From positions 70,392,176 to 70,456,175 of the forward strand of contig CM049316.1 in NCBI GenBank assembly GCA_026874595.1: a stretch of 64,000 nucleotides of DNA. Direction: 5' to 3'. Source of the stretch: Sipunculus nudus. Taxonomy: Eukaryota > Annelida > Sipuncula > Golfingiida > Sipunculidae. The translations under genes and the position numbers were made by a program. The notes under the pieces are model-generated. The model was not told where the DNA came from. It did not search any database and saw nothing but the letters and a program-made list of their open reading frames with translations. This document shows, in pieces, positions 16,905 through 39,876 of the stretch; positions within the stretch are counted from its first letter, which is position 1; the number at the start of each line of letters is the position of its first letter.

Positions 16905-17398
16905 ATGAAAGAACGCAGAAGCTCCTTTATTAGCCAGATTCCCTCGGGGCATATTTTATTTCTACTATGCCTACATTGGTGTGCGCAAAGTGTGTACGGA
17001 ACTGGATGCCAGATTAAAAGGCAGATTCGACCAGGGGATACGGTCAACTCACTGGGAGAACAATTTTCCCATCGAGGAATGAAACGGTTGTACCGCATTC
17101 ATATACCAAAGAAATATAACCCGCTGGCCGACCCACCGTCGCCGCTTGTGTTGTTTCTACACGGAAACGCAGGGAGTGCGCGCAAAGCCGCAAGAAATTC
17201 TGGCTTCTTGGATAAAAGCGAAGCTGAGGGATTTATGCTTGTGTTTCCTGAGGGCATTCACAATTATGAGATTGCGTACTCCCCCGGTGCTTCGCGGATT
17301 TGTTCCTGGAACGCCGGGACTTGCTGCTCCACGGCTCATAAAGAACAAGTGAACGACGTGGCGTATATTGAAGAAGTCATTTCTGACGTCCAAAGAAG
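16905..17398 (+). CDS. Coding exon 1 of a secreted PHB-depolymerase/feruloyl-esterase-like hydrolase (N-terminal 164 residues)
   Basis: This exon encodes the N-terminal half of an alpha/beta-hydrolase of the PHB-depolymerase / LpqC / CE1 esterase group. ATG 16905 has A at -3, and an in-frame TAA at 16887-16889 rules out a longer start in this exon. Residues about 16-32 (HILFLLCLHWCAQSVYG) form a signal-peptide core with likely cleavage after VYG (32). The oxyanion-hole strand is LVLFLHGNAGSA (81-92), followed by GFMLVFPEGI (109-118) and the family block SWNAGTCC (134-141), then VNDVAYIEEVI (149-159), where the family usually has V-D-D-V. The exon ends GAAG|GTAACA with a codon split after two bases; reading on gives an immediate stop, so splicing is required. 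Known for the family: hydrolysis of ester bonds in polymers or feruloylated polysaccharide. For this protein activity is doubtful, because exon 2 lacks the catalytic serine. Codon use and GC are clearly higher than the surrounding AT-rich sequence. Confidence 0.93.
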
Positions 17399-17708
17399 GT
17401 AACACAATTTATGTATTGTGCACTTGTATGTTTAAGGTATTTAGAAAAAAAAATTAGCTTTTGTGGGGCTTATCTTTTTTAATTTAAATTTACAAAGAAT
17501 ATGCATCATTAGAAGTAGGAGTCAAGATGCACTAACTGAACTTAATTTTTATATGAGGTTACATAATAACGCCCTAAATCGATATGGTCAACCAACGGAG
17601 GTGACAGCATATTTAGCTCTTGTTTAAAACCTTGGGCTTAACAGACATTGAAAGTGTTGCCGAGGGGATAATGATATTAAAAACGTAATTACCCCTCTGC
17701 CAGATCCT

Positions 17709-17740
17709 TCTCTCTCTCTCTCTCTCTCTTTTTCTCTCTC
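17709..17740. repeat. (TC)n microsatellite
   Basis: A CT/TC dinucleotide tract with a short T interruption, in the 5' part of the intron. Confidence 0.9.
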
Positions 17741-17851
17741 GACAATTTTCGTTATGTAGGAAAGTTTCAAAGTCAAATTTTGAGCTAATATTAATTAATT
17801 AAATGGCTAGGTTGCGCCGATAAGTTTGATTGGCAGAGCGCTGTGCCCATG

Positions 17852-19975
17852 ATCCATGACAGGTTAATAGCGAGCCTAGTGCTAACACTAACCAAAAGAT
17901 GTTAGTAGCGAGCCTAGTTCTGACACTAACCATAACAGGTTAGTCGCGATTCTAGAGCTGACATTAACCATAACAGGTTAGTAGCGAGCCTAGGGCTGAC
18001 ACTAACCATAACAGGTAAGTAGCGAGCCTAGTGCTGACACTAACCATAACAGGGTGGTACCGAACCTAGTGCTGACTCAACCATAACAGGTTAGCAGCGA
18101 GCCTAGTGCTGACACAAGTCATAACAGGTTAGCAGCGAGCCTAGTGCTGACACAAGTCATAACAGGTTAGCAGCGAGCCTAGTGCTGACACAAGTCATAA
18201 CAGGTTAGCAGCGAGCCTAGTGCTGACACAAGTCATAACAGGTTAGCAGCGAGCCTAGTGCTGACACAAGTCATAACAGGTTAGCAGCGAGCCTAGTGCT
18301 GACACAAGTCATAACAGGTTAGCAGCGAGCCTAGTGCTGACACAAGTCATAACAGGTTAGCAGCGAGCCTAGTGCTGACACTAATCATAACAGATTAGCA
18401 GCGAGCCTAGTTCTAACACGGTCGATAACAGTCAAGTAGCGAGCACATGACAATTCATTGCCGAACCTAGTGCCAAAACGGCCATAACATGAGAGGTTAG
18501 GGGCGCGCCCAGTCTTAACTCGACCCATGTTAGGTTAGTGGCGAGCCTCGTGCTAACTCGGCCTATGCTAGGTTACTGGCAAGCCCAATTCTAACACAAG
18601 TGCTAATGCTAAACGGTCACAACAGGATAGTGGCAAGCCTAGTTACTAGCTTTGTGCTAACCTAGCCCGTGTCAGGTTAGTGGCGAGCCTAGTGCTAATT
18701 CGGTCTAAGTCAGATTAGCGGTAAGCCTAGTGCTAACTTGACCTATGTCAGGTTAGTGGCCAGCCTAGTGTTAACTCGATCTATGTCTGGTTAGCGGCGA
18801 GCCTAGTGCTAACTTCGCCTATGTCAGGTTAGTAGCGAGCCTAGTGTTAACTCGGTCTATGTCAGGTTAGCGGGGAGCCTAGTGCCAACTTGACCTATAT
18901 CAGGTTAGCGGCGAGCCTAGTGCTAACTTTGCCTGTGTCAGGGTAGTGGCGAGCCTAGTGTTAACTCGCTGTATGTCAGGTTACCGGCGAGCCTAGTGCT
19001 AACTTGACCTATGTCAGGTTAGTAGCGAGCCTAGTGTTAACTCGGTCTATGTCAGGTTACCGGCGAGCCTAGTGCTAACTTGACCTATGTCAGGTTAGTT
19101 GCGAGCCTAGTGTTAACTCGGTCTTTGTCAGGTTAGAGGCGAGTCCAGTACTAACTTGACCTATGTCAGGTTAGGGACGAGCCTAGTGTTAACTCGATGT
19201 ATGTTAGGTTACCGGCGAGCCTCGTGCTAACTTGGCTTATGTCAGGTTAGGGGCAAGCCTAGTGTTAACTCGGTCTATGTCAGGTTAGCATCGAGCCTAG
19301 TGTTAACTCGTCTTTGTCAGGTTAGTGGAGAGCCAAGTGTTAACTCGCTGTATGTCAGGTTACCGGCGAGCCTAGTGTTAACTTGGCCTATGTCAGGTTA
19401 GTGGAGAGCCTAGTGTTAACTTGGTCTATGTCAGGTTACCGGCGAACCTAGTGCTAATTTGGCCTATGTCAGGTTGGTGGCGAGCCTAGTGCTAACACTA
19501 TTGCTGTTGCTAAAACGACCATAATATGATAGTGGCGATCCTAGTCACTAGCCTAGTGCTAACACTAGTGGTATTGCTAAAACGACCATAATATGATAGT
19601 TGCGAGCCTAGTGCTAACCCAGTCTATGCCAACTTAGGAGCGAGCCTAGTGCTAACTCGGCCTAATTCGGGTTAGGTGTTAACAGTACCCATGACAGAGG
19701 AGAGGCGAGCCCAGTGCTAACTCAGCTATTGCCCGGTCATTAGCTAGCCTAGTGTTACCACTTCTCCTAACAGTGGCGAGCTTATTGCTTACGCGGCCCG
19801 TGACACGTGTTAGTGGCGAGCCTTGTGCTAACATCAATCAAGACATGTTAGTAGTAGCGAGCCAGATATCATCATCACCACAGGTCAGTAAGAAGCCCAG
19901 TGTTAACCGCCACGTTTACAAGTCAGTTACGAGTCTAGCCAGTGCAAACATGAACCATGACACGTAAGCGGTGAG
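17852..19975 (+). repeat. Satellite/minisatellite, 38-bp unit, about 55 copies
   Basis: The unit core is GGTTAGYGGCGAGCCTAGTG followed by YTAACTCGGCCTATGTCA. Units at 18083-18348 are seven identical 38-mers (ATAACAGG...ACAAGTC), pointing to recent local amplification; the flanking units are diverged. From about 18700 to 19480 two unit types alternate (GTGCTAACTTGACC and GTGTTAACTCGGTC), forming a 76-bp higher-order repeat. Each unit contains GTTAGC...GCTAAC or a close variant, so it can fold into a small hairpin. GC content is well above the surrounding intron. The open frame at 19752-19967 lies in the array and is not a gene. Confidence 0.93.
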
Positions 19976-22699
19976 TTTATTACTCTCATTTCGAAGAAAA
20001 TTTTGTTTCGAGTTTTTTTTTCCAATTCAAGTTTATCATCAGAATTTCTTAATGTAGGATATACACTCCTAATTCAAAACACCGGACTAAGCTGGAATGA
20101 ACCAAACACAAAATATACCGAGTGGCCTTAAGAGAGAAAGAGAAACAAAACTGTGTAACTTGTTACCTAATCGGCACAGGGAGAACACTTTGACGTCATC
20201 TCGAATGCAGCTTCCGCTGGTGCAAAACAAGGATGTCAATTTCTTCATTTTCCTCGGCTGCACAAGGCAGCTGGGTTTCATTTTGGTTCTATGACCAAAA
20301 AGAAAATCTTATTTATTATTTTCCAAATATAAACAATGGCGCCACCGATAGTTTAACTATTGTATTTTTTAACTTAGATTCTGGTTAGTTGCAGTTTTAT
20401 ACACACAGCAAAGATTAAAAAAATTATGACACTATGTACTGTGCAGATTCAATTAGTTATAATGTAAGTAAAAATCAAGCTCATAATGCAGGAAACAAAC
20501 ATGTTGTGTTTTCTCCAAAGAACTCTCAATTTTTCCTCTGTTGTTGAAGATAGTTCCCAAAGAACACAGAATTTATACCGTGAGCTACACTCCTAACTGT
20601 GTGGTTTACACACTGCAGTCGGTCAATATCATTAAGCTTACGTTAAGCCTGATTCTTGGCATGTGCAAGAACCGGAGCAATAAGACCAACGAAAGTGGGC
20701 TGTCATGGGGTTAAACGTTGGGCTGGATGCAAAATGAAATACCACGACTCATTGGTCTGATTACGATTCTTTGCTCTGTGTAAGCCCTGGTGGTGAAACC
20801 CGGAAAATTTTGCTATTCATATCAGCCGTTATACCGAAGGGAGATGTATAACCTTTAGCAACTTGTGATCTTCAAAACATTGAAGAAATTTAAATTGCAT
20901 GCAGCTTAACCGAAGTACTAACGCTGATTGTAAACTGCATTCAATGTCCATCATTTTAAAATTAATGAAATCCCCTAATCTTATACCGGTCATAAAATAA
21001 ACACATAAGTTATCACTCTGGTTATAAACTTTATTTCGTTGCAAGTTTTATTACATGGAATACAGATATAAGGCAGAAGGATGGGTTGCTTAAAATGCAT
21101 GATATGCCAAGTAAAATCAAGATCCAATGTAGGGAAAGGGTCTTTATAATTCACAACGAAACGCGTTTACCCCCAAAACACACATACTCAAATACATTTT
21201 AAACACAAGCATGTTAATTTGGGAACACCCCTCAGACATTGAAAAGATGGGATAAAAACACACCACAGTTCTTTCTAAAAGCTTGGCTTTACGTAGCCTG
21301 ACATATAAACATGAAATAATTATCGCCATCGCACGACATATATTTCTTTTTCTTTTTTCACAAGGGGGGGGGGGTAGGGATCCCCGAAAGGCGCACCAAT
21401 TTATGAGTGAAATTCGATCGTGGGACATATGCCGCCTTTCCAATAATACTGCACAGTGCACATCCTGGTTGGGGACCGACCATGAAAATTCCCAACTGAA
21501 ATTTTAACTAACGATCTGTCCTGAGCTCTAAACCCCATTCCATCGATGCCGATGATAACAAAAAGCCGTTGATGGCACAGAAAGAAAGTTATTTTTTTTT
21601 CAAAGGATCCCTTGAGAGAAACATAAAATATTGTCTTTTTATTTCACGATTTGCACGGCTTAAAGATTATGAAAAAGATGTAGAATATTTTTATTTATAT
21701 ATATACTTAACATGGAATATAGCCTGTTTTAATTAAAGGGTTTTATGTGACCGAGAGCGAAAATGGTCCTCAATACCATCGTGAATAATGATACGTCATT
21801 TATCTAGCCCAATTTTATCGGCAGGCCTAATTTATCTGTCAAAGAGACTTAATTTGTTGATCCGAAACCATATATTTAATTCCTGTAATTAAAAAAAAAA
21901 TTAGAAGTTTATTCCAAAAGTTTGAACAAATCAGCATCACTGACTATATCTATTGGGTTACAAATCATGATAGCAGGAAGTATTTCTTGATATCATTGGT
22001 TAGTTTCGCATGTTTTTTTTAAATTAAGCTTTTACAAAATAGCTCTGTGCGCGACAACGTTAGATGAAATTATAATAGTTGTTAATCGGATTGATAGTTA
22101 ATAGTTTCTCTCTGAATTAGTAAGGAAATATGCCCGTAGATGGCAGTAAAGTGGCTCCAGTTAGGCGGTGGACTGGCCCAGTTCCGAGTCAGTGATGTCA
22201 ATCAATGTGTTTTTACCCATTTTACTGCACATTAAATTTAGAAACCACCTAGCAGGAAATTAAGGAGCACTTAGACATTAATGTCGCCCAACGTTCCTGT
22301 CATTAACTTCCCTTTAACCGGAAATGATTTACGAGACACTGAAACTTATATTGGCTATTTAGATTCATAATCATAATCAAAAACGGGCCGTAAAAATACC
22401 GATTAATTTAGGTCATACCTGAGGAACGATACATGTCACGGCTGACCACATGAATCATACATCAACTGATAAAGGACTGTTTATCAATTTTTATTTGTGT
22501 TCACTTTACTCCTACCCAATGGTGTTTATATAGGACCTCAGCTATGCAATAGTTTACATGCAATACATGAAGGTAGCGTCATCATTACACGTTTAATATT
22601 TAGTGATAAAATCATTGGCTCCTCATGCAAAAGTGTATGTTGTTTCTATACATATGCAAATTCTTTAAGGTTGAAATAAATTTGTAAGGAGGGACAGAG
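19976..22699. other. Intronic AT-rich sequence; SINE-A fragment at about 21380-21440
   Basis: A short segment CCGAAAGGCGCACCAATTTATGAGTG (about 21386-21411) resembles the minus-strand end of SINE family A (compare 56118-56137). A G10 tract is at about 21364-21373. No gene was recognised. Confidence 0.4.
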
Positions 22700-23040
22700 T
22701 ATTGTTCCAATTCTCTTCGTCTCTTACATTAACAAACACATTTTTGCAATAAGAAAAAACGCGCATTCTCATGGACTATAGCACACTGTGACGCGCCGAT
22801 TTGCAATGACACAGACAAACGTATTTTTGCACCTTCATAGACACGCATTTTGCACTAGCAAAACCCAGCATTTTTCAATGACAAAGACACCCTGTGAAAG
22901 ATAAAGATAAAAGTATTTTTGAACTTTCAAAGAAACGCATTTAGCACAAACTAAAACATACATTTTGGTCTTTGAAAGTCAAACATTTTCCAAAAACAAA
23001 AACGCATGCATTTTTCCTCTATAAGAGACGCGTTTTGAAC
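22700..23040. repeat. Degenerate tandem repeat of ACGCATTTTTGCA-type words
   Basis: The words ACGCATTTTGCAC, GTATTTTTGCACC, AGCATTTTTCAATG, ACGCATTTAGCAC and ACGCATGCATTTTTCC recur roughly every 30-40 bp, linked by CAAAGACA-like segments. An old, diverged tandem repeat is the simplest reading. Confidence 0.55.
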
Positions 23041-26000
23041 AGATCACAATGCGTTACATTTATGTATATTTTGACAATTTTTAAGTAATTGGGGTAATTG
23101 TTAGTGTTATTCAACTGAAAATGTGATATACTTTAACAGGATTTTGCAAAGAGAGTAATGCCCTACATTTGTCACTAAAAGTCATTATTCAGATCTTAAA
23201 ACAAAATAAAATGGTAAAATTCCTTGTAAATTACCTTTAGCCTGAAAAAAAGGAAAAAGTTCCATCGTTTATCCCATTTCATAATTCCCCTATTATATTC
23301 TGTGACCGTCTTCAAAGAAATATTTTGGTAAAATTTATTAGAAATTTATTAGAAGTCTTCTTCTCGCCTCATAGACAATAACTACTAAACTAATATTAAA
23401 TTTATAGCGTTGATACGAACTTTGCTGTTCTAGAAAGTTTGCAGTTTCTCATCATCGATCAAACAGATTTGTCATTGACACAGAAAGAGAAATCAGAAAT
23501 GTTCGTGTCACCACATATCCGCGAGATTCCCCAAGATGTAATCTGTCCCTGTTGTCTTTACAAAGCAATCCAACTCCTCTTAAAAGACCATCAGCTCCAA
23601 AAATAAACTTTTGTTGGTAATAGAAACAAATCATTCACCTATAAGTAAAAACCAGTCGCTTTATTCGGGAAAGGTAAAATACTTCCAAATCTGCCAGTCG
23701 GTAAAAGCTAGCCGTAAATCATTTGTTCAAGTTTACCGTAAAGATAGAAGCGTGGCCCTGTGAAATAGTTTCTTATCACAGAATGTTTGAGTGTGATGGA
23801 TGGGTTACTGCGGGCTGAACTTGGAGCTTTGGTAAATGTGATCTATTGCTGAGCTGGCGGTCTGTTTAGAATTTGAGAACAGTTACTGATGATGGTAGTG
23901 TTGTCCAAAACTTTAAACTAGTGGAAATCTTACAAGAAATGTTTTTATTAGGACAGAACCTCAGTTAACCGTAAACGGGGTGCAGAAGTATGGACGTATA
24001 AATATTTATTATACACATATAACGTATGAGCGCGGACTAGTATTGTTTGCTCTCCATGTGTATGTGCGTGTATTTTAAAAAAATCATCTCAAGTGCGGGG
24101 ATTAATGCCCCAGCTGAATGTAAAGTGTCACATAATCATGCTTTTACTAAAACTGTTTACATTTAACAAATATTTTTCACATTTCTATATACCTGACCAA
24201 AATAAAGACCAAAAGAATAATGCAAAAATTCTCATTTCTCAGCTTGAAAATTAATAATAAACTAGATGCAGCCGTGGAAAATGTACGGTTCTATATGATA
24301 AATACTTCTGTAATGAGCTTGTAAGGACTGAATGTCGCATATTTTTATCCTGTGCTTTTCGCAGGGACTGTTGATCATGATTTAAAGATCACATGGACTA
24401 GGATTCTCCAGGAAACCCCCCTCCCTTAAAATGTCAGCAAAAATATCAAATTATGCTATTCAAGAAATCAAATAAAGTAGTAGACATGTATACAGTATGT
24501 GAATTTTGAGGGGTTTTCTTGTCCGATAAACAAACATGGGCATGACATCATCATTGCCCGGAGTAATGGGGATTGTATATAAAAGCCATATATACTGTGA
24601 AAACAATTTGAAGCAATACTGTGACTATACATTGAAAAGTGAAACTTTATGAAAAATAATTTGTATAAACTAAATCTCAAAAGACATCACGAAAAACGCT
24701 GCTTTTAGTTATCAATAGATGTAAGTCTTGGGTATGATAAAAACACATACAAAATTCATTAAAGGCTCTTGCACACGAAAATGCTACTTAAAGCTGATTA
24801 AGTGGCAACACAGGCTCAGGCAAATAGATTTCTTCAATATTATCAAATGCTTGTCCTGGGTTTTGTTGATTGTCCTCTGGCTGATCGGAAACTGATGATG
24901 CTCCCAGGAAAACGACAGGTTTACCTCTTTCGGTGTAACTACGTGGCAAAAAAAAATAACTTCAGCCATGGTTCGTTGCTTTATCGTGAGTAAAACAAAT
25001 GCAAAAAGGTATACCCGGATTTTTATAGAAAATTTGCAAAGGGTTAACGCCAAACCCGTTTGAACAATCCATTAAATTTTGCAGGTTATCAGATTCAACA
25101 TAATATATTTTTCACTTGTGCCATATGACAAAAGAAGAATTCCATTGTCCCCACGTAGGAGCCACCCATTCGTATGCATTCGTTCTTCCACTCGCTAGGC
25201 GAAAAAGGGTCACTGAAGCGTGACAATGTTTTCATGAAAAGTGTACACTTGAACACATGAGTGATAAGTGTTTTAGGCTCCGACTGCGGAATTTAGTTTT
25301 GTAGTAGATTCCCATTCAGTTTAAAGATCTACTTGTAATATAGTTTGATGTTTCAAAGTCCCTGGAGCTAGCGGATCCTGAAGTAATATATGTGCATCCT
25401 CTAAGTTTAAGTTGTAGAGCTTTGAACAAATGGTTTTTCAAACCACCCTTAAATTGAAACCATTGTCTTAAAGGAAAGATATTTATGTTTTGAACGAAAA
25501 AGCTTTAATTCCTGTGCAGGGAAGTGCAGGGAAGTATTGGGATCAATTGGGATATGAGTTGACCTGTGACCACGAATTGCCTCCTTAAAAAAGAAAACGT
25601 GACAGGCATGAAGGACTTAAAGCAAAAAAGAAACAGGGGCACATAAGGGGGGGGGATATTTTTATGTGATATGGGCATTATAAAGTATGTACCTTAATGA
25701 CATTATCCCGCAAAATAAAACTTGTCCTAGAAAGAGCGCACCGCCGATACGTTTGCCGAATTTCGAAGGCTCAAATCAGAACGGAAGCAGGTAAACCATT
25801 GTCTAGAAAAAAACAGCTGCGTATTTATTATAAGGATGACTAATATCGAAGGCTTCATGTCATATATTTCTTCTTTCTAGTGGATGTACAAATAGGAAAG
25901 CCTTTCGATATTATCATTGGGATTGTATCCAATGATAAGGGTGTAAATATAAGACTTTCGCTCCAGAGAAAGTGCGAACTCCAGTCGCTTGGTACAAGTA

Positions 26001-29000
26001 CATTATTTTGTGATTGAGTAGGCTTAGTCGCTCGTTTTCTCATTTGGACCCGAGCCCGGTCTCGCTGGTATTGTTTTCCCATTACCATAATACCCGCGGT
26101 AAATTAAGGGTTCATTTGCAGCTGAGGTTCCTGTCGCCTCCCCGACCGATCTATTTACTTCGTGATTAAACATGTATTGTCAATCGTGACCTGTTATCGG
26201 TTCCTCACGTGATAAAAACCCGTTTTATACTCACGATATCTGGGTGTTTACTGTTATACCTTTATATCTGTTATACCACTTTCCCCCTGGGTCCAAACGT
26301 CAAGCTTGTCAGAGACGATGCAATAAATTTCGGTTTAAAATCAATTCTTGTATTGCATGATCATTTTGCAGGATTATGCATGACTTTATAAATCCCCATT
26401 AAGTGCATATGCTGCAAGAACGCAATTCATGTAAATAAATAAACATAAGGAAACGACTTTTTAAGGGGTAATCTGAAACCGTAGTTGGTAATCGGAATTC
26501 GATTTCAAGTTTCTGGGTGAAAATCAGAGGTCGGTTTCAGATCAAGTCTGTGAGAGATAAAGTCAAATGTAAAGGTAAAGTTTGCTTTAGTGCATGTGAG
26601 GTAAAAGAAAAGGGGGACTGAGTGGTATTTAGAGAAGAAGACGCATGTCATTTTGATTTGCCCCTCCAAAAGAAGATTTAATACTCCGGCCATCGAAAGC
26701 AAACACTAGGGTAATATTTTCTGTAGTTACCAATATGTTAATTTTTATTCGTCTTACTACTTGATAAAAAAAGTATTTGCTATGCATTGGCAACATGAAT
26801 TAGATAAATGCAGGCCGCCGTAAACGGACAAAACAGCTTAACATATTTCAAACAATGATTTTAATATATTGATTATCTAATGATGGCAAATGGCAAATGC
26901 ACCAGTCATACGATATTTAAAATAGTTTTTATCGTGCACCATAGAAATGAATCCCTAATTCAGAAATTCCATTATAATAAAAATGCGGCCATGTTTAATA
27001 AATATTTAAAACTACACTACGTCTGTGCACCTTAAAAAAAGTTTCAACCCTGTGGGGATCCAGCTTTTCAATGCAATACTCAACCACTTCTGTTATTTGA
27101 CATCAAATTGTATTAGTTTAATGAAACACTCTCATATTGTTAAATTAATAATAAAGAGATAATACGTAACAGTAAGCTTATGGTAGTTAGAGACGGGTTT
27201 TTTTTTTATCAAAATGGTTGTACTTTACCTTACCCCACTGATTGGATTTGACAGATATCAATATGTAATAGTACGAATAAATAAGGCTTTTTGTTAGGAA
27301 TATGATTAATACATGAAGCATGTCGTGTATTTTTTTACGGAATTCAAGGAAAAGTTCCACAAATACCCACATGGACTGACCAAGTCGAAAGGCTTTTTCT
27401 GGCACTTTTTTTCTACACTTAGGACAGGTAGTGTCATCTAGCGGCAAGTTATATGACTAATTCATAGTACATAGACATAGTACCCTTGTCCATTTGACTT
27501 AAAATCCGGACTTTGTTACGTTTGCGAGGTATAGAAACAAGTTTTATCTTACATTATGTTTGAGGTAAACAAAATTACTACCTGCCAATACTTAACCAAA
27601 AATCTACATGGTCCGTAAATCTATATATCCTTGACAAAAACCATCGTACATTGAAATGAGTCAAACTAATAAGATAATAACATTAAAAAAAATATCAAGA
27701 AAAGGTCCACCGATACCTGATCATGGTATATAAATAGGTAAAATATAACCTCAATAATGTTAACTAGTGCAAAGATAAGGGAACGTTGAAACACTCCCAC
27801 CATAATAGCCTTATCCATTGGCGACTACGAACACGAAAGATGAGAATGGGTTTCTCACTTTTAGTTTGAATCATATGGGAAAAAGATTTTTTGTTGTCAA
27901 TATAACGACCGAGCACTCGGCCAGCTGAATGTTACGCCGATTTTGACTCATGAAAAATAACGTAGTTTTTTCGATATGAGGCATGACACAGTTTGTTCCA
28001 TACGATTTTTCTTTTTCACTATCAGCGAATTTTCAACAAAAGCATACGACAAGTCAGCGTCAAAATAGAATATTCACAGGAAAGACATTTTCTAGACATA
28101 TCTTTCACCCAATCATTTTGGCCATGAGATCCCGCAAAAGTGCGCAGTTGCTCCAGATCCGATGATCGCGAGGAGAAAACATATAAATCGGGAACAATAT
28201 GGGATATCCTGAACCGCCGACGTCATGTCCCCATTTATATGTTCTAATGCCGATAAATTTCCTTCGACAAAATATGCGGCAAAATATGTGCCTGGCTTTC
28301 AGGATGCTGTTGCTGTCAGCACTTTTTGCCTTGAATCTTGATATATACAAAACTGGTATTGTGTGAACACAGCAGACGATGATTTGCGATATATCATGAC
28401 CTTAACTGCACTGTCTGACAAGGCAAACGACGAATCATTCGTATTCCGTGAGTCATATTGTCAGATAATTTACAAATCCGAAATGACGTTTCTGTACCTT
28501 GGTAACCGTTGCTAAGGAACAATCATATGCACATCAAGCCGCAACGGGTGCAACAGGCCAATGGTTTTAACACATTCTACCGTAAAGTATAATATAAGAA
28601 AAAAAACTGGAGCAAACACACTAAAATAAAAGTGTTTGTTTTTGCTGAATTTATTAATAAATTGAACCTCCTGAGCACAGCACATCGATTTATTTTCACA
28701 AGACGGCGTTAGTTCTTTTGCTGTAATCGGATTGGTCAATAAACTTGGTTCGTTTGTCAATAATCTAACGTTATTCTGACCCTGTATAAACACGGGAAAG
28801 TTTATCACTTTCTGTTCAATAATAAATAAACATTTTAAAGGTAAGCTTGACCCTGTAACGGCGACGCTTATTCTGTAACTATTGGTCCGTACGCCATTAT
28901 TAAAGGTTAATGTCCCGTTGCTTTGTTTGGTTTGGTGGCTTTAATTTGATTGTTTAACAGACCATGAAATTATCACTCGGCTCACTAGACCGGCTCCCTG

Positions 29001-29504
29001 CTCACATGTATCCCCTAGAGGCCCAGGGCAACGTACAGACGGGCACTAGACTACTGTCATACCAAGGTTTTAGATGATGCAAAATACCATCCTAAAGCTA
29101 TTATAGTTGTCGTAAATCTGTATGCATCTGTATACATATGACGTTTGCGTGTTCAGTGGTGCGACATAAGGCTTAAGGCACAAAGAAAACATGAAGGCAA
29201 TGTTTTTAGGCGGGGACGCCAGGAAATATAAATTTAAATCCTTGACCCAAAATATGGTAATTTTTTATACATATTCTAACATTTAATGAGAGGAGATTTT
29301 GAAAAAAATGGTTTCGTATGGCAGCCATTTGAAATCCAAGATGGCCAAATGCAAGGATGGAAACAGCAGTATTCTTTTTCTCCACGTATTGAAGTGGTAA
29401 ATCATACCGGTTTCTAAATTCTACCAAAAAAGGTTTAGGATCATGACTAAAAAAAATCAATTTTATGGCAAACTGCCACCTGACATTCATTGACCAAACG
29501 CATG
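23041..29504. other. Intronic AT-rich sequence, no gene recognised
   Basis: The short open frames in both strands here lack recognisable domains or compositional contrast. A G9 tract occurs near 25649. The frame on the minus strand at 27187-27447 contains one CPKC pair but no second zinc-binding pair. Confidence 0.45.
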
Positions 29505-29610
29505 TTTTAGCTGTTAGTTCGTAGAATAAAGGTCATTTTTAGCAAATAAAAAGTTTCCATGGAGATATGACCAGGAACTATTTGAATGTTAAGCAATAAC
29601 TGTATAACGG
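29505..29610 (+). repeat. Single decayed copy of the ~155-bp array unit
   Basis: The blocks AGAATAAAGGTCA, AAGTTTCCATGGAGAT and TTTGAATGTTA appear in the same order as in the array at 2815-4380. The TGACC arm of the palindrome is lost. Confidence 0.5.
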
Positions 29611-29818
29611 TTATTTTATTTATTTACATTATGTGCCGTGACGGAAGTATCTATCACTATATCTATCAGCTGAGCTTAAAATCTTTCACAATGTTCTTAT
29701 TTGAGGTCAGATTAATCACTATAATATTCTTAGCAATTTCCCAATTAATAAATATACAGATGAGATAACAATTTTCAAATTGATTTTAAACAATAATGTG
29801 GTTTAAGTCAGCCCACAG

Positions 29819-29838
29819 CCCCCCCCCCCCCCCCCCCC
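29819..29838. repeat. Poly-C tract
   Basis: 20 consecutive C. Similar tracts are at 9-22, 7228-7241, 39981-39993 and 47250-47271. Confidence 0.95.
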
Positions 29839-32062
29839 AGTACATTGGTCAGGTAACCTTGTACATACTATTTGATATAATTAACCGTCTCAGTGACCTA
29901 TATAAGGTCTGGTCGCCTTGGATATTACACCTGCAGGTGCCCGTCGCCCTCCGTCCCCTGTATGTCGTACAGATCACAGATCAATGCTTAATCTGCCCTT
30001 GAAATGTCTAGGTTCTACTGAAATGACGGAAAAGCCGTTTCGAGCCTTTATTCGGCTATTTCCAGTCGCCCCATTGTCTCTAAAGAAATAGACCTATGCT
30101 GGTTGAATAATTGACATAGTGAATATGTAGACGGCTCGGAGCGGTGTGCCCGGGGGATGGCATTAGTTGCCGAGGTCAGCCTCCTCTGCCCGCTGAGGTT
30201 AAATAAAGCCACGTCAATTATACTAAAGCCTATAAGGTGCGCGACACCACGAGAAAATCGTCCAGCCAATATGTATTAGGGTGTTATGTGACCTTATGAA
30301 AAGTGACTTGAAATGCCTACCTCTTGTTTATCTCCTTCAGCTTTTGCTATTGAGGTTAGGCATGTGGCTGGGTCATTACACGCATGTTTTTTTTATTCAG
30401 ATGGAGTGTTTATAAAACAAAAATAAACAAAGTACAGTGGCTTATTAATAAATTGTACATTACATATATAAATTAAATACATTCTTAACAAGAAGGCATT
30501 AATAGAGTGCATGTCTTCGCCAATGTCTTAACTGATACACATCAAGAACTCGGATCATCCCAAAATTTAACTTTATTGATATGCTTTTAAAAGCTATAGT
30601 CGATTTTGCTCCGTAACCCTTGACTCCTTCTAAAAAATATTGTCTAATAGAATTCCCCTTATGAACATTGTGGAAATAGAATGGGACCGTTTGCTAGTGG
30701 GCACCCCTTGCCAATACCTGATAACTTGCATCATCTAAATTTATATTGTTTATTGTTCGAGGCGAAAGGGCCTGTTAATTTTAAACGAAAAAAAGGAAAC
30801 CTCATTAAGTGAATGTAGGTCTTTTAAATTTCACTTATAATGACGTCTTTGCGATGAGCTGATGGATGCATTACTCTTCCCTTATAAGGACGTAACCATG
30901 ACGACGTTAACGACTATTCCTTGGCCCATATTTATATTTTCTGAAAAAAAAAAAATCATCTTAATGCATTTATAATATATTCGAGATATTGCTTTGACAA
31001 ACACACATACATACATAAACCACCCAGAATACGTGCTCCTCTGCCTCCTTCGTTTGCGTCGGTAATGATTAGCTCTTGGAATATTTCACATTTTGGCCAG
31101 TAATCTGTGCAAGGCTGTGTTTAAAATAAGAATGTAGCGCAATTATGAACACCTATCGATTGATTTCACGCATATTACTTTGGTTTATAGACGATGCTGC
31201 CGGCAGACTGAAGCTTACTTTGTGAATAACTGGTCCTGCATGTTTAACGTGTGAAAATGGGTGAAAGTGCCTTTGAATCCTGAACACAGGCATTTGTCGT
31301 GATCTGAAACTTTATAAAATGCTCGAATCGTTCACGTCTTTTAATATTAGCTGCGCTTAAGTCCTTTTCTAGAAAGTATTAAAGAAGTTTTAATATAATC
31401 TAACAGCAATCAACTTGATTTATCAAAATATTTCTTTTTTATTCATGTAGTTTCGAAACCAACCACAAACAAAATGAGAAAATTAGTAATTTTGGGTACA
31501 TTACCGCACTGGCCTTTAAACGGTTTTTCCTTAACGCTAGACCATAGTTTACAAATATTTAGTTTATGTTTTCCCGGAGACTGGCCCAGTCGGTACCGCT
31601 GATAAGACTGTAATGTTCCCGCTTACTGAGCCATAAAGACTTGCTATCTGCCATGGCCTGATACTGCCATCTTGCGGCCAATTATATTACGGTTCTCCGA
31701 CCGAACTGATATATCGTCTGTGTTTATTTCGCTTTGTTCTACACATTTTATAAACGACATTAAATACTAACAGTCTGGAAAGGCTTGTTCTCCTGAAATG
31801 ACGGTCAGAGAGACAAACACCAATCATTTTCTCTTAACGGCAGATGACATTCAATGACCATGTTTTTTATCGTTCTAAGTCTCGTCAAGGCATTCATTGT
31901 AAATTAAAAAGGTAAACTTTTCGTATAATTTGTTTCATGATTTCACAAAAGTATTTACAAATATTCCCTTCACGCCTTTGCAACAATATTTTTGGTTAAT
32001 TTTTATAATTATGATCGCATAAATAGAAAATGGTATACAATACAGACAATTCTTCTTTGCCT

Positions 32063-32108
<46 letters not shown>

Positions 32109-35100
32109 ACCCCCTTTAACATATTTATATAATTAATAAAGCTAAAAATGCATTTTATCATTTAAATCCCTTGACATATTTATACAACTGACCATTATAT
32201 TTTCGAAAACTAGATAGAACACACGTGCAGATTAAATGAAAGAGTTCTACGCACAGTACGTTATAACAGCTCCGCTAATGAGGTTTGCGACACCCATTGA
32301 TAATAGACAAATTATTTTTATTACCAATTAATAATAGTTAAAACGAAAGTTAATAAACAAGATGTAATTAGGGAATGATATGCCTTTAATGATGTAACAT
32401 GGTGTAAGATTAAGCACATTATCATTCAAACTGAAAGCATGGGTAATTAGTAGTCACTGAAACCGGGGAATATGCGTCATAATATTTACGAAACTGAAAT
32501 ACGATTTGATTCCATGACAACAGGTATTTTTTTTTAAAGTGATATATCTTAGATATTGATATCATCACTTCACTCTAAATATGTAGATCGAGTTCACTAT
32601 CTGGATACCGGTTCGACGACTATATCTTTATTGCAGAAAGTATTGTCAGTTCAAGGATTAACGGAGATGGGCAATTCGCGACCAAATTGTGGTCGAACAA
32701 AATATCTGATGTTCCCAGCATTAAATATTCATTCTATATTTTAACAAAATATACCCAGTGACTAATATATATTTTTTAATTGTTGCATGATTATTTGAGC
32801 TCTAGCATTAGTTTTAGTTGTACGACATTTGATCTTTACTAACCGCATTCCGTTATCCTGGAAGGAAAGTCAATGATATGGTCTATTCGATAGTTTGACT
32901 TCATATTCTTTTATTTTTTAAATTTACAATTGTATGCCCAGACTTTACCTTGATAAACATTTCTAAAAAAAACGTTCAAGTCGTACTTACCAAGGGGTTC
33001 CAAATTACCCTAGGGTCTTCAAATCATCTCAAACTTACAGGAATTCTGTATTTATACTTTATCATGGGGGTTTTTAAGCTGTTTTGTCATTGGTTCTTAA
33101 TTAAAAGTAACGGATGACAATTCCTATGTAAAATATTACTCATAATTGAAATAGATTTGAATTTGTCGAGAAAGACGAGTAGAGAATAACTGCGAGTGGA
33201 TTCCATTCTGCTTAGCTTCCTTTCTTTGGAAGAATACCGAAGAGTCACTGGTATTCGTTATATTAACGTTTGTTATCGGAAAAACAACCATTTATATTTT
33301 CAAGGTATTGTCAGTATTGTCACTCAGTCAACTGTGTAAGAAAAAAGTCTACCTATTTCACTACTTCAAGTTTGATATGTGTGTAATCTTTAAAAGGTGC
33401 CATGTGATATTGTGTCACATTGTTTGTGTTTGTTCACTACATTCATAATGCATACCAGTATATCAACTGGTTAATTCAAAAGCGAAATCTAGGTATCTGA
33501 ATACTAAAGTCGGAGTTTGAATATAACCCACAATGAAACAGTCAATATTACTCTACATTCAAAAAGTACATGGTTGTCATATCCAGACACTGTAAGATTA
33601 AAACACACATACAAGAGGGGTTCGTCCGTGTTCGTCCGGACGGGTTTCCCATTGGTTGGGTTCAACCGCTGGATCCAGTTGCGTAGTTTCTAATGGGTAT
33701 TGCTGCGATAGACTATTCACGAAATGTCAGATTTAATATCAGAATTGTCAAGTTTCTGTAGACCAGAACGGGAGTGTACGAGTCGTGGTCATTGTATGTT
33801 TTCCTGGCTACCATTTCTTGCCCCTGCCAGTTATAATATTGATGAACGAAGTCCTACAAAAATGTTCCTAAAAAAAAATAACCATCAAAAGCTTAATAAA
33901 ATTATCTTTTATATTAACATGTTTTGATACAAAGCCTTTTATAACTTCTCTTTCTGAAACCTAAGAATCGAGCTTTCCCTGCCGGTCCCCTCCTTTACTT
34001 ATTAAAACTGCTTTAAATTACATTTGAAATTTTATGTTATACTTTTTTCAATATTTTGCGGTAAGCCTGTGAAGTCCCCGAAAAAGAATATTTATATGAG
34101 GAAAATTATACTCAAACAAGGCGTATAATGAAGACTAATATTTCCTGGATCAATTTAAGCTTCTGATTATACCACTGGATTTCTGGTAATCATGTTTTAT
34201 TAGGATCGTTTTACTCAGTACTTCATAAATCACGTTAATTACTTTAATTACTACAGTATAAATGTTGGTTTCCCTTCATTAAGTAGAATGTTTGAAATAT
34301 CCATCGCTAAATTTGGCCAATTGTTCCTCAGTTGTTTGTTTTGAGGAATTGTCTGGGAAACATAATAACATCACGTGATTTAGCTTCTTGCCCGATGAGA
34401 GTCAGTGACTCTGAGGTCCAGTAAAGATAATAAAACTAATTTGCGTTATGGGACGGAACGGATTGAGCAAGGGTGATAGTCAGAGTAAATACTTCATTCT
34501 TCAGATGCTGTATATGAACTAATGAATTTTTTTTTCGTGATAACGAATATATAAATATATATAAATATATATATATATGCCATACCTTACACTGTTCGTG
34601 AATTGTTAGCTCAAGGTACAGATTTCCTGTCGTCTGCGATTCCAGTTAAAATCTGATCAAGGTTTGTTTGTTGGTCTCCCCTTTGGCATTCACCCTTCCG
34701 CGATTGTAAATGGCAAAGGAAGCCTGAAAGCCGGACAGTTAGCGGTTCTGTCTGAAGAATCAGTATTTTGCCATAGTGATGTCTGCCCTCCTACAAAAAC
34801 CGCAGACTTTGGTTTGCATTTTATGATATATCGACAATTGAACAGTGAAGTCCATGAACAGCTCAGTTCAGCTCGCGATATATCAGAAATAGTGGTGAGT
34901 GTGAAGCGGTAGATGGGCCGGGTGGAAGAGATCTGTTCGAAATAAGAACAATCCAAATCTTCTGTAAGAATTTCCTACTGGTACTGCTTGCGTTCTGTTC
35001 AAACCAGGAATGGCTTGCCCCCCTGGTGTAGTAATTTAATATGGCCCAGTTTATATTTCAGGTGGGGGGGGGGGGAGGGGATCTGAAATCGATTTATCAA

Positions 35101-38100
35101 ATTTGTCCAGATCTTTGAATACCTTATATTTCCATGTAATGTGCTGCTTTTGTGAATGTTATAAGTCGATATAAATATAATTTACAATATATAAAACATT
35201 TTCAAATACTTTATTTTCATAGATTTTAATTGAACTTTTAATTAAAATCTGGTGTCTTGCACGTGGTTTATTGAAATAAAATATTGAGTTAAGGGCAAAG
35301 AAATTATGATATAGTTATATCAGCGCGGAGATAATCTGAATTATGCAAAAGTAACCTTGAAATGGGCGGAACTATCCCGAGGGGTACTATGAAATCGGTT
35401 TCAGTTTACTGAGGGGAAACTGAAATTGGTCCGGATCAGTAGGCGCTCGCAGTTTTGCAGATGATGCAGAAAACTGCCGGGTCTGGTTGTAAAATTACCA
35501 ATGTCATCATTCATTAGTCGCTTTTACTGGTGTTCTCTTGTTAACTCTTTATCTCGGCTGCATGACGACACCGCGGATACCCACACCTCGGTGGCTTTCC
35601 ATCAACTGGTTCTTCTTGTGGGATGCATGTCGCGTTTGCAGACATCCGTGAAAACCAGTGTTGCTATTCAAACACGGCCCTTGCTCGGCGCAAGCTCACT
35701 ATATTGTTTTTCTTTGAGTAACCGACCATCCTGTTGGTCGCCTGGCAGACAAACTCATGCGCTCGTATTCAAGCGTGAAGAAACACTTTTGGACTTGAGC
35801 CATTTCAAAGAACGTTCTGGTTTCGGATGTTTCCTGCAAAACCGTTCGAAGATTTCTCCTGAGACAATACACAAGAAAAAAAAGTTCAAAACTTATATTT
35901 AATACACTGCCTCTGCATGTATCACAGTTCGGTGGAGGTCCAATCCAATCAGAATGAGACGCCTCCTGAGTGCCGGAATTCTCCATTTTTATTTATTTTA
36001 AAATTTGAAATGTGAAATTTCAATTTGACATTATGACACTTTAGAAAATGTTCATAAGGTCCAAGGAAAGTTAGGAATTTTATTTCTTATGCCTTTTACG
36101 TATTCTTGTTTTGTTTCATTTAATTGTAAATTCATTAGAGACTTAAATGAAAGACTTAAAAATGCTTAAGGATTCAAGGTACACAACAGTCTACACAACA
36201 TACGAAATATATAAATTTGGATTTGTGTTTTTGAAGATGACAGATTACAGCCGTTGGTCTGAACTGAAGCAAGGTACTTTTCATATCAGTTAAACCCAAG
36301 TTCTCCTCACTTAAGAAGCTTGCTAACATCTGACAGAAAAACTATAGATTAGGTCACTGTAATTCTCCGAGTAACAAATCTAAAAAAGGTGTTTCAACAC
36401 CCACCGAAGTTAAGAATTGTAACCGGTTGTAAAAATACATGCAATACCCAGGAACTGCCGGACTAATTGTCATGACGTTAGGTGAGCTAATCGGGCTAAA
36501 CAAAATGACATTTGGAAAAGACGGTGCGAGCCACCTGCATATTTTCAGTTTTAATCACTTGTATTTCTTTAAGTATAACTTTGGTTTGTCCTTCACAAAG
36601 ACAAAAATCATAGCCGTTGGATACAAATGATGAGATTTCTCAGGAGCCCTAAATATAGATTGCTTTTGCCTTTATTTTCTACATGAAAAGAGGTGCAAAG
36701 ATATAAGTATTAGTGTTTCAGGTGCTATTCAATCTAATCCTTAGCAGGGCATTCACTCTAACCACTAGACTTCAAGCTTTTACACGCAGAAATAAAATGA
36801 TAAATTGTTTCCAACTTTTATTAAATCACTATATTTATGCCCTTTTTCATCGGTAAATTTGTTTTAACTGCTGAATGTCATGGTCAATGGGCCACTTATT
36901 TGATAAAATACTAGTTACAAAGCCATGAAGTACTAATTTTTAGGAGATCAAAGTGTCGGATAATAAAGTAGTAACGATTTTTTTCTCACTCAGCATTGGA
37001 TATTTCTGTAAAATTGAAAGCATGGAAATGCAAACAATGATTTGTTATGCACTGTATTACAAAAATAACATATTGTCATATAAACCTGATGAAATAAGCA
37101 GTGTACAATATGGTACAACAATAAACAATACACTTTACAACAAACTGTATGGCGTCTTAAATCCTGTTTACTGCCTTCTGCGTGACAGTTAATGGTCGTA
37201 GGAAGACAAACAGTAGTGTTCAAAATGAGTTAGAACAAATTCCATAGACCAAGACAAGACAAGTAAATATGAGTGTCTTCTTAACAAATGAATCCTGGAA
37301 TGAATTATGCATTCAACCGAACAAGTAGAAATGTGAAGTATAGACAATAGTATAAATAATTGACCTTAGGCCATCATGATTTTAATTGAATTATTCATTT
37401 CCCCCAAAGTAGAAATTTGAGGCCGTCAGACCTGAGTGACGCATTGTCATGAGCGATGTGAAAAGAGACTTGTCATTTATCAATACATCCAGTCTCTCGA
37501 TAGCTACAGTGCCCGAGGAGTGGTAACTATGACAATGATTATACAAATTGACATCAAATATCAATTAACCTTTAATGCTTTCATTATTGAATTGAAAGAG
37601 CTCATCCGCGGGTTAACATTTCATAAGTGCCAATTATAATCCCTATAATGAATTTTAAATGAATGATTTCATGTCCATTCATAAGAAAACTGAACAAAGG
37701 ATTTGAGTGCCTTCAGTCCAAACATAAACAGCCAATCAGCGCAAGCGAAGGCATAATTTTTTGATAATATACGGCTCTTATAAATTCTCAAGTTTGACGT
37801 TTCATTTATGAAATTTCAAAGATGAAACAATTACACTCATTAGTCATAATATAAATATGTTATAATCTATCATAACTTACACTGTTCTGATATAAACTTG
37901 TTTCACTGGCTGACTCATTCCGGTCTTTGTTAGCATCCAGGTCTAAGCCAGTAAGGCCCCTGCAAGTAAATGTTCGCTGCTCACTTTTATTAAACAGCAT
38001 CCGAAAAACCCTTTTAATGAAATCTTTTTGTAATATTGAAAAGTCACATTTTATTTCAAGACCTGCGTTAGTAGAAAAAAAATCTTTGCGAGTACTCATA

Positions 38101-38585
38101 AATTAAGAATTTTTTTAAAACAAAATACAACTTTAGAATGTACGGTTTGATAATGAAGCATATACCAACCGGTGTGACAGGCTGACTGTAGAAACCACTT
38201 GACAAAAGAAATAAAACACTCGATCGGTATTACCCGACTGACACTCGACAGGTCGTTACTGTGGTAGCACTAAATAAGGAAGGATTTCAATTCGAAAAAA
38301 TCATCAAATCCGATTACCATATTATTTGCAAGGTACACGTGCTGCTAGCGCATAGGAGTCTTTAACGGTTTTACATCTCAGGTGATATGCAAGTGAAGGG
38401 GCGCTAAGAAACCGTAATGCGGTGTTTCTACTGACCAGAAACAAAATGATTTCACAAGTATAGTTAACTACATGAATCATTGCTTTAAAGGCCAAAATGC
38501 AAACATTTATATGAGTATTCGAGTCCTTAATCTGGACGCGAGGACTCGGCTAGAATTATTACTAATGAGGTACTTCAGTATACAT
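29839..38585. other. Intronic AT-rich sequence with (TA)n at 32067-32109 and 34549-34577
   Basis: Microsatellites and a G-rich tract near 35064-35080 are present. A 133-codon open frame at 35501-35902 (+) overlaps a 95-codon frame on the other strand; neither has a recognisable domain, signal peptide or supporting splice signals. No gene is called. Confidence 0.45.
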
Positions 38586-38830
38586 TCTAAGAATCCGGGT
38601 TCTTCGCAGTGGACTGAGTGGGAAACCTTTTTGGTTCCAACTTGAACCCTAAGTACATGGTTCCTATTAGAACCTTCCAAGGGTTCTTGTATGGAATCTA
38701 ACGGGTTCCATCCATAACCCCTTTAATTAGAATTTTAAAAGTGGACTGACTAGTGAAACTCTGAAGTTTCTTTGTGGACCCCTTCTATAGGGTGGTTATG
38801 GAACCTTCATAGAAAACGTTGTCCAGACCG
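38586..38830. repeat. GGTTC/GAACC-rich degenerate palindromic repeat
   Basis: GGTTC and its complement GAACC occur about ten times in this stretch (GGGTTCTT, TTGGTTCC, TGAACCC, TGGTTCC, AGAACC, GGGTTCTTG, GGGTTCC, GGAACC). This resembles the inner part of palindromic MITEs. Termini were not determined. Confidence 0.45.
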
Positions 38831-39071
38831 TCATATAAAACAGTAAAGATCAATTATACAGATTTTTTTCTTTTTCCTTAAAGTATACTACCTTCAACAC
38901 TTATTATCTTTTAATAACACGCATTTATATACATGTATGAACCGACCAATGAAAGAAACCAAGTAAGGCTAAAAAGATAATGCAAGTGCGAAATAGTAAA
39001 ATAAAGAGTCAAAAGGATACAAAATACATGATTGTTCATTAATCTGGTATTTTTTTAATTTTCTCCTGCAG

Positions 39072-39876
39072 GTATTGCGTCTCCCAAGATAACGTCTTCA
39101 TCGCCGGATTTGCCAACGGAGGGATGATGGCGTATCGTCTGGCATGTGAAATCGGACACCGGATCAAGGCCATCAGTGTCTACGCAGGCGCACTGCTGTT
39201 CCGCGACACGCGGGAATGCACAGTCGAGTGCATGGGATACCCAACGACACAGAATAAGTGCTTTAATACACTCAAATGTAACAGGGAAAATATTGAAAAC
39301 TTACCGCCGATTTTCGAGTGCCACAATGACCAACATCCAGTGTCGGTTTTACATATGCACGGCCTGAAGGACCCAAGAACGCCATTCAAGGGAGGCATTG
39401 GTAAAAAGAATATTGAGGAGGTAAACTATTTACCCGTGGAACTGACACTTGATTACTTGGCCAGTAAAAGCGGGTGTTCTGTAAGTAAAAAGGATATATT
39501 CCGAAATCGCACCAAGAATCGGGAGCAAGCGGTATGCATTGAGTATTTGGGATGTCCTCATAAAAGTTATCGTTTCGTTTTGTGTAAACTAACCAATGGT
39601 GGTCACTATTTACCTGGTATATCGTCGCCATTTTGCAATCCCAGGGATTCCCGCCGAAATGTGGATCGCTGCCGCGTAGCGGAACAGGAAATGGGGCCAA
39701 CGTCTGATAGCTTAGATTTCACTCAGATGTCTTGGGTTTTTTTTCGGAGGGCCATGGAGAATTCCCGGACCCCTCAGTGGGCTGCAAGAAACAATCATGC
39801 TTCTGTTGTTAACCTAATAACAACTTGGCACCTATGTCTAGCTATAATCTGGACAGTTGTTAAACTTTCCTTGTGA
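39072..39876 (+). CDS. Terminal coding exon 2 of the same hydrolase; catalytic Ser replaced by Ala; hydrophobic C-tail
   Basis: The acceptor TTTTCTCCTGCAG ends at 39071. The first G completes Arg165, and the reading continues YCVSQDNVFIAGFANGGMMAYRLAC without a gap relative to the family, so no exon appears to be missing. The nucleophile elbow, normally G-x-S-N-G-G, is GFANGG with Ala179 encoded by GCC at 39112-39114. The acid candidate D265 (HGLKDP) and histidine H343 (NGGHYLPG) are conserved, as is the late W-x-F-F (385-388). A cysteine-rich insertion holds C214, C218, C228, C234 and C248. N310-R-T is a possible N-glycosylation site. The last ~23 residues (VVNLITTWHLCLAIIWTVVKLSL) are hydrophobic and follow small or polar residues, which fits a GPI signal or a tail anchor; the lysine inside the tail is atypical for GPI. 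Total protein is 432 residues. No AATAAA was noticed within several hundred bases after the stop; ATTAAA at 40541 is a weak candidate. I infer a secreted or surface pseudoesterase, with A179 as sequencing error or family norm still open. Confidence 0.93.

Follow-up and report, generated by a model that had tools for sequence, protein, structure and literature searches.

A Serine-Less Family of Esterase-Like Genes in Sipunculus nudus: Candidate Cell-Surface Pseudoesterases Related to PHA Depolymerases

The loss of the nucleophile usually abolishes the activity of a serine hydrolase. What, then, is the role of a gene in the sipunculan Sipunculus nudus that encodes an esterase-like protein with an Ala where the nucleophilic Ser is expected? 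The gene may be decaying or misread, its product may have taken up another chemistry, or the old fold may serve without hydrolysis. In the following, “the window” is the whole 64-kb stretch of DNA that was analysed (C11:70392176-70456175 of a 1.43-Gb genome), and the coordinates of the gene are positions in this window.

Gene model and relationship to known esterases

The gene consists of two coding exons on the + strand, 16905..17398 and 39072..39876, whose predicted splice join gives a protein of 432 aa; these exons are the sole start-codon frames of at least 150 aa within the 64-kb window. The upstream exon, defined by its open reading frame and the donor AG/GTAACA, encodes aa 1-165 with the last codon split, and contains a hydrophobic N-terminus, the oxyanion-loop motif, and the motif WNAGTCC. 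The downstream exon, which starts with the G that follows the acceptor tttctcctgcag, encodes aa 165-432 and the stop, and contains the nucleophile elbow, the Asp, the His, and the C-terminal tail. The predicted junction, from the split codon at the donor to position 39072, restores Arg165 in frame. The predicted intron between them (17399..39071, + strand) is 21.7 kb long and contains a minisatellite with units of ~38 bp at 17855-19612.

A preliminary description of this DNA had reported an Ala in the elbow, an intact oxyanion motif and acid and histidine positions, and an open frame. All of these were found, with the residue numbers as first given, and all of them lie on the + strand: the oxyanion-loop motif H86-G-N-A-G-S at 17160..17177; the elbow GFANGG (G177-F-A179-N-G-G; GGA TTT GCC AAC GGA GGG) at 39106..39123, in which the GCC at 39112-39114 is the codon of Ala179; the catalytic-acid position Asp265 (GAC) at 39370..39372; and the catalytic-histidine position His343 (CAC) at 39604..39606. 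No stop codon precedes the TGA at 39874-39876 in the spliced model.

The window protein is matched by the NCBIfam model NF050058 (e_dPHAscl_type1, extracellular type-1 short-chain-length PHA depolymerase) with an E value of 1.3e-35 and 123.2 bits, below the curated cut-off of 150, and the whole profile (1-276 of 276) aligns to aa 54-389. The Asp, the His, the oxyanion His-Gly, WN-G-CC, and NGG are common to both; the protein differs from the model in the absence of the Ser nucleophile, a four-Cys insertion, a hydrophobic C-terminal tail, and the loss of Trp345. Pfam gives chiefly general hydrolase families. The best three profile matches in the PDB, 9j07, 8jh8, and 8daj (E values of 5e-21, 1.4e-12, and 7.8e-12), are solved structures of feruloyl esterases and of one PHB-depolymerase-family esterase; their elbows, GKSNGG, GFSFGG, and GLSAGG, carry a Ser where the window family has Ala or Gly. 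NF050058 also matches all seven members of the family described below, two of which are recognized by Esterase_PHB. Judged by profiles and motifs, these paralogues share descent with the extracellular type-1 short-chain PHA depolymerases and CE1-like esterases.

The nucleophile position in seven paralogues and in bacterial relatives

Each of the two exons is found at seven places in the genome, and these places pair in order and strand to give seven paralogues. This number should be read as at least seven genes, because only the best-scoring candidates of the genome search were evaluated, and a divergent member or one with a different intron could escape. Three of them lie within about 0.41 Mb on contig C11, the contig of the window gene, while contig C1 carries two at about 5.9-6.1 Mb and two more at about 94 Mb. 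The translations are 413-432 aa long without an internal stop, they are 33-61% identical to one another, and the position and phase of the intron, with its split codon, are the same in all seven.

No paralogue has a Ser in the elbow: six have Ala and one has Gly. The elbows read GFANGG in the window gene, GYANGG in two copies, GHANGG in three, and GHGNGG in one, and the codons in the nucleophile column are GCC (three copies), GCA (two), GCT, and GGG. The Gly copy, with the codon GGG, is L012:1500-2316 on contig C1 near 6.14 Mb. Asp265 and His343 are both kept in all seven, and so are H86, WN, CC, and NGG. Because the loss of the Ser is common to the whole set and is written in four codons, it most likely predates the expansion of the family. 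By parsimony, it would have preceded the split into three and four copies, with the Gly derived later in one of them. The preliminary description had explained Ala179 by a single change from TCC to GCC in the window gene, an explanation that is too narrow for a loss shared by seven genes with different codons.

Among the paralogues, pN is 0.27-0.48 versus a pS of 0.74-0.90, and pN is below pS in all 21 pairs. Since the silent sites are saturated, omega is not quoted. The low pN and the open frames indicate that the family is maintained by purifying selection. Most motifs of the pocket are likewise conserved, as judged from the alignments, in which constraint on the pocket is not separated from constraint on folding.

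A scan of genome contigs gave 423 bacterial relatives, and the 80 best of them served for comparison. Nothing in this procedure favoured Ser: the two scan patterns either ignored the elbow or accepted S and A alike, and the ranking went by how closely a relative resembled a query with Ala. With the residue taken from the alignment column, the nucleophile is Ser in 79 of the 80 bacterial rows and Asp in one. The columns of Asp265 and H86 hold Asp and His, respectively, in every bacterial row (H86 thus being constant in bacteria and paralogues alike), and the column of His343 holds His in 79. Five further bacterial relatives from plasmid records, at 20-27% identity, all have the elbow G-x-S. In a tree, one branch with support of 100/100 separates the seven paralogues, themselves divided into groups of three and four, from the 80 bacterial rows (the midpoint root serves for drawing only). 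The one bacterial row with Asp is L075, from a bacterial MAG contig (JANXRZ010000116), with the elbow GFDNGA; its neighbour in the tree, L041, has GLSNGA.

The preliminary description had held that only the nucleophile was lost, and this has to be widened. Of 43 columns in which at least 90% of the bacteria have one residue, 31 (the start Met included) are kept in all seven paralogues, seven are kept in some, and five, F154, S179, W294, W345, and A381, are kept in none. Two bacterial-conserved Trp columns are therefore gone from the whole family, one of them two residues after the catalytic His, and hence the pocket itself has been altered. There has also been a gain. The distance from the elbow to the Asp is 86-87 residues in the paralogues versus 46-49 (median 48) in the 80 bacteria, owing to an insertion of ~38 residues, approximately aa 207-248 in the window protein (39196..39321, + strand, placed by this distance), which brings four extra Cys and is not present in the bacterial rows. 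In total, 15 Cys columns are invariant among the seven in the paralogue-only alignment and 16 in the combined alignment, where C35 is also aligned.

Both ends of the protein are hydrophobic in all seven paralogues, as judged by hydropathy. The same measure points to a putative signal peptide at about aa 1-32 of the window protein (16905..17000, + strand) and to a GPI-signal-like C-terminal tail at aa 409-432 (39802..39873, + strand). The C-terminal Kyte-Doolittle maxima are 1.53-2.89 in the paralogues versus at most 1.21 in the 54 bacterial rows shorter than 360 aa. The sequence of the tail is variable, none of the 37 columns from aa 396 onwards being invariant across the paralogues, and a tail that is hydrophobic yet not conserved in sequence would fit the expectation for a GPI signal.

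Possible roles of a pocket without its nucleophile

An essential catalytic residue is lost here, by sequence, from an otherwise conserved enzyme domain, which is what marks a pseudoenzyme. We consider it fairly probable that these proteins are secreted, GPI-anchored pseudoesterases that lost the Ser in an ancestor and bind a ligand in or over the old pocket without hydrolysis. In this proposal, we infer a single ancestral loss, absent hydrolase activity, ligand binding, and GPI anchoring. An ancestral gene would have exchanged the Ser nucleophile for Ala (now Gly in one copy) before the copies on contigs C11 and C1 separated, after which constraint would have preserved the Asp, the His, the oxyanion His-Gly, and the majority of the other motifs of the pocket. 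Export and stabilisation by disulfides are probable, and a GPI anchor, suggested by hydropathy, probably holds the proteins at the outside of the plasma membrane. There, a ligand of ester, acyl, or acylated-glycan type, or else a partner protein, may sit in the old active site or over it without being hydrolysed. The opinion of the preliminary description that the gene has a non-catalytic role rather than being in decay agrees with genes that are intact, constrained, and probably secreted, and that have kept the Asp and the His with the Ser gone.

The alternatives differ widely in weight. For a decaying gene or a one-base sequencing error, nothing speaks except the missing Ser itself, and we have rejected both: because seven paralogues are open and intact, none with a Ser and with differing codons, because the Asp and the His are kept, and because pN lies far below a saturated pS, such an origin is very unlikely, its chance being close to negligible. 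In another reading, the fold has been retained for adhesion or as a structural scaffold, in the manner of neuroligin, with the old pocket unused and the Asp and the His serving as stabilisers of the fold. Cholinesterase-like adhesion molecules have the alpha/beta-hydrolase fold. The insertion with its extra Cys would provide a new surface, and the loss of the two Trp columns points in the same direction; on the other hand, most of the columns of the active-site motifs are invariant, including both remaining residues of the triad. There is also precedent in inactive carboxyl/cholinesterases such as the neuroligins, which act in cell-cell contact (PMC3017765): neuroligin, neurotactin, and gliotactin are described there as cholinesterase-like adhesion molecules that persist after the loss of catalysis, as do carboxylesterases of the silkworm that lack the catalytic Ser. 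All of these proteins belong to the carboxyl/cholinesterase family, whereas the window family lost its Ser in another branch of the fold, and no carboxylesterase type-B domain is among the eight Pfam families listed for the window protein at E values up to 1. We regard a pure scaffold as possible but doubtful.

Another possibility is that the proteins are still enzymes, with an altered chemistry in which the Asp-His pair activates water or the nucleophile has been relocated, for example to Ser142 or Thr143, which follow the CC motif (17328..17333, + strand). Both of these residues are invariant in the seven paralogues, while in the bacterial rows Ser142 never occurs and Thr143 is rare (about 4%). 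The constancy of the Asp and the His would suit this idea too, and the bacterial relative with an Asp in its elbow indicates that residues other than Ser can stand there. Nevertheless, the proximity of Ser142/Thr143 to His343 would be hypothetical, and the general expectation that a serine hydrolase ends with its nucleophile weighs on the other side, so we judge an altered chemistry to be quite improbable.

Returning to the pseudoesterases that bind without hydrolysis, we can speculate more broadly. It is conceivable, and we offer it tentatively, that this is an old multigene animal family of PHA-depolymerase-like proteins, rich in disulfides and anchored at the surface, in which the nucleophile was exchanged once for Ala or Gly, giving receptors for ester signals, acylated glycans, or polyesters of microbial or environmental origin, or else in which the nucleophile moved to the lineage-specific Ser142/Thr143 loop. 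The cholinesterase branch already provides examples of pseudoenzymes of the alpha/beta-hydrolase fold; the window family appears to have taken this step in the PHA-depolymerase/CE1-like branch, with the loss shared by seven genes and constraint acting on all of them. If the binding is real, the family would represent a surface receptor of animals whose ancestral class of substrates can be identified, and a clean case of a nucleophile lost from an active site that is otherwise mostly intact. Among the titles and abstract openings listed, our literature search (depolymerases in mollusc, Crassostrea, and metazoa, and broader topics) found no description of this animal family, which does not imply that it is absent from print.

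Relatives on viral contigs and other hydrolases in the genome

Neither the single window protein nor the seven-gene alignment matched a relative on viral contigs; a wider alignment (A2) matched one, L006. This is a PHA-depolymerase-type esterase with an intact elbow, GMSNGG, at L006:2432-3337 on a contig classed as viral (IMG/VR contig IMGVR_UViG_3300038309_000228). Our impression from the translations is that the neighbouring frames resemble phage genes, and this phage-borne sequence is outside the 80-row bacterial count. Used as a Ser-bearing query against the genome, L006 matched 14 places, all of which are exons of the seven genes, and no Ser-bearing member of the family was found by it.

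A genome search with NF050058 at E values up to 1 gave 28 places, of which 14 belong to the seven genes and none reaches the cut-off. At the same E value, the model has matches in 13 of 14 well-known control genomes, none over the cut-off; because it is so unspecific at this level, its weak matches say little. Of the 14 places outside the family, the six stronger ones were fetched; in one of them, L134, no frame passed the filter. L129 (G000 C115:65557-66222) is an unbroken S-formylglutathione hydrolase frame (NCBIfam, 403.5 bits) with the elbow GHSMGG, and its contig, C115, could be bacterial sequence within the assembly. L132, with the elbow GFSMGG, presumably resembles dienelactone hydrolase.

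The same genome also contains elbow exons akin to the fungal PHB depolymerases of the 2d80 type. The three that were read, L130, L131, and L133, keep the Ser (GLSSGG, GLSAGA, and GISSGG, respectively) and are best matched by NF050059 (e_dPHAscl_type2), with 48-51 bits on fragments of 52-87 aa against a cut-off of 280, and the one exon that was compared with the PDB has 2d80 as its best match. They are located on C2 near 4.1 Mb and on C11 near 16.4 Mb, and such type-2 exons may be arranged as local clusters.
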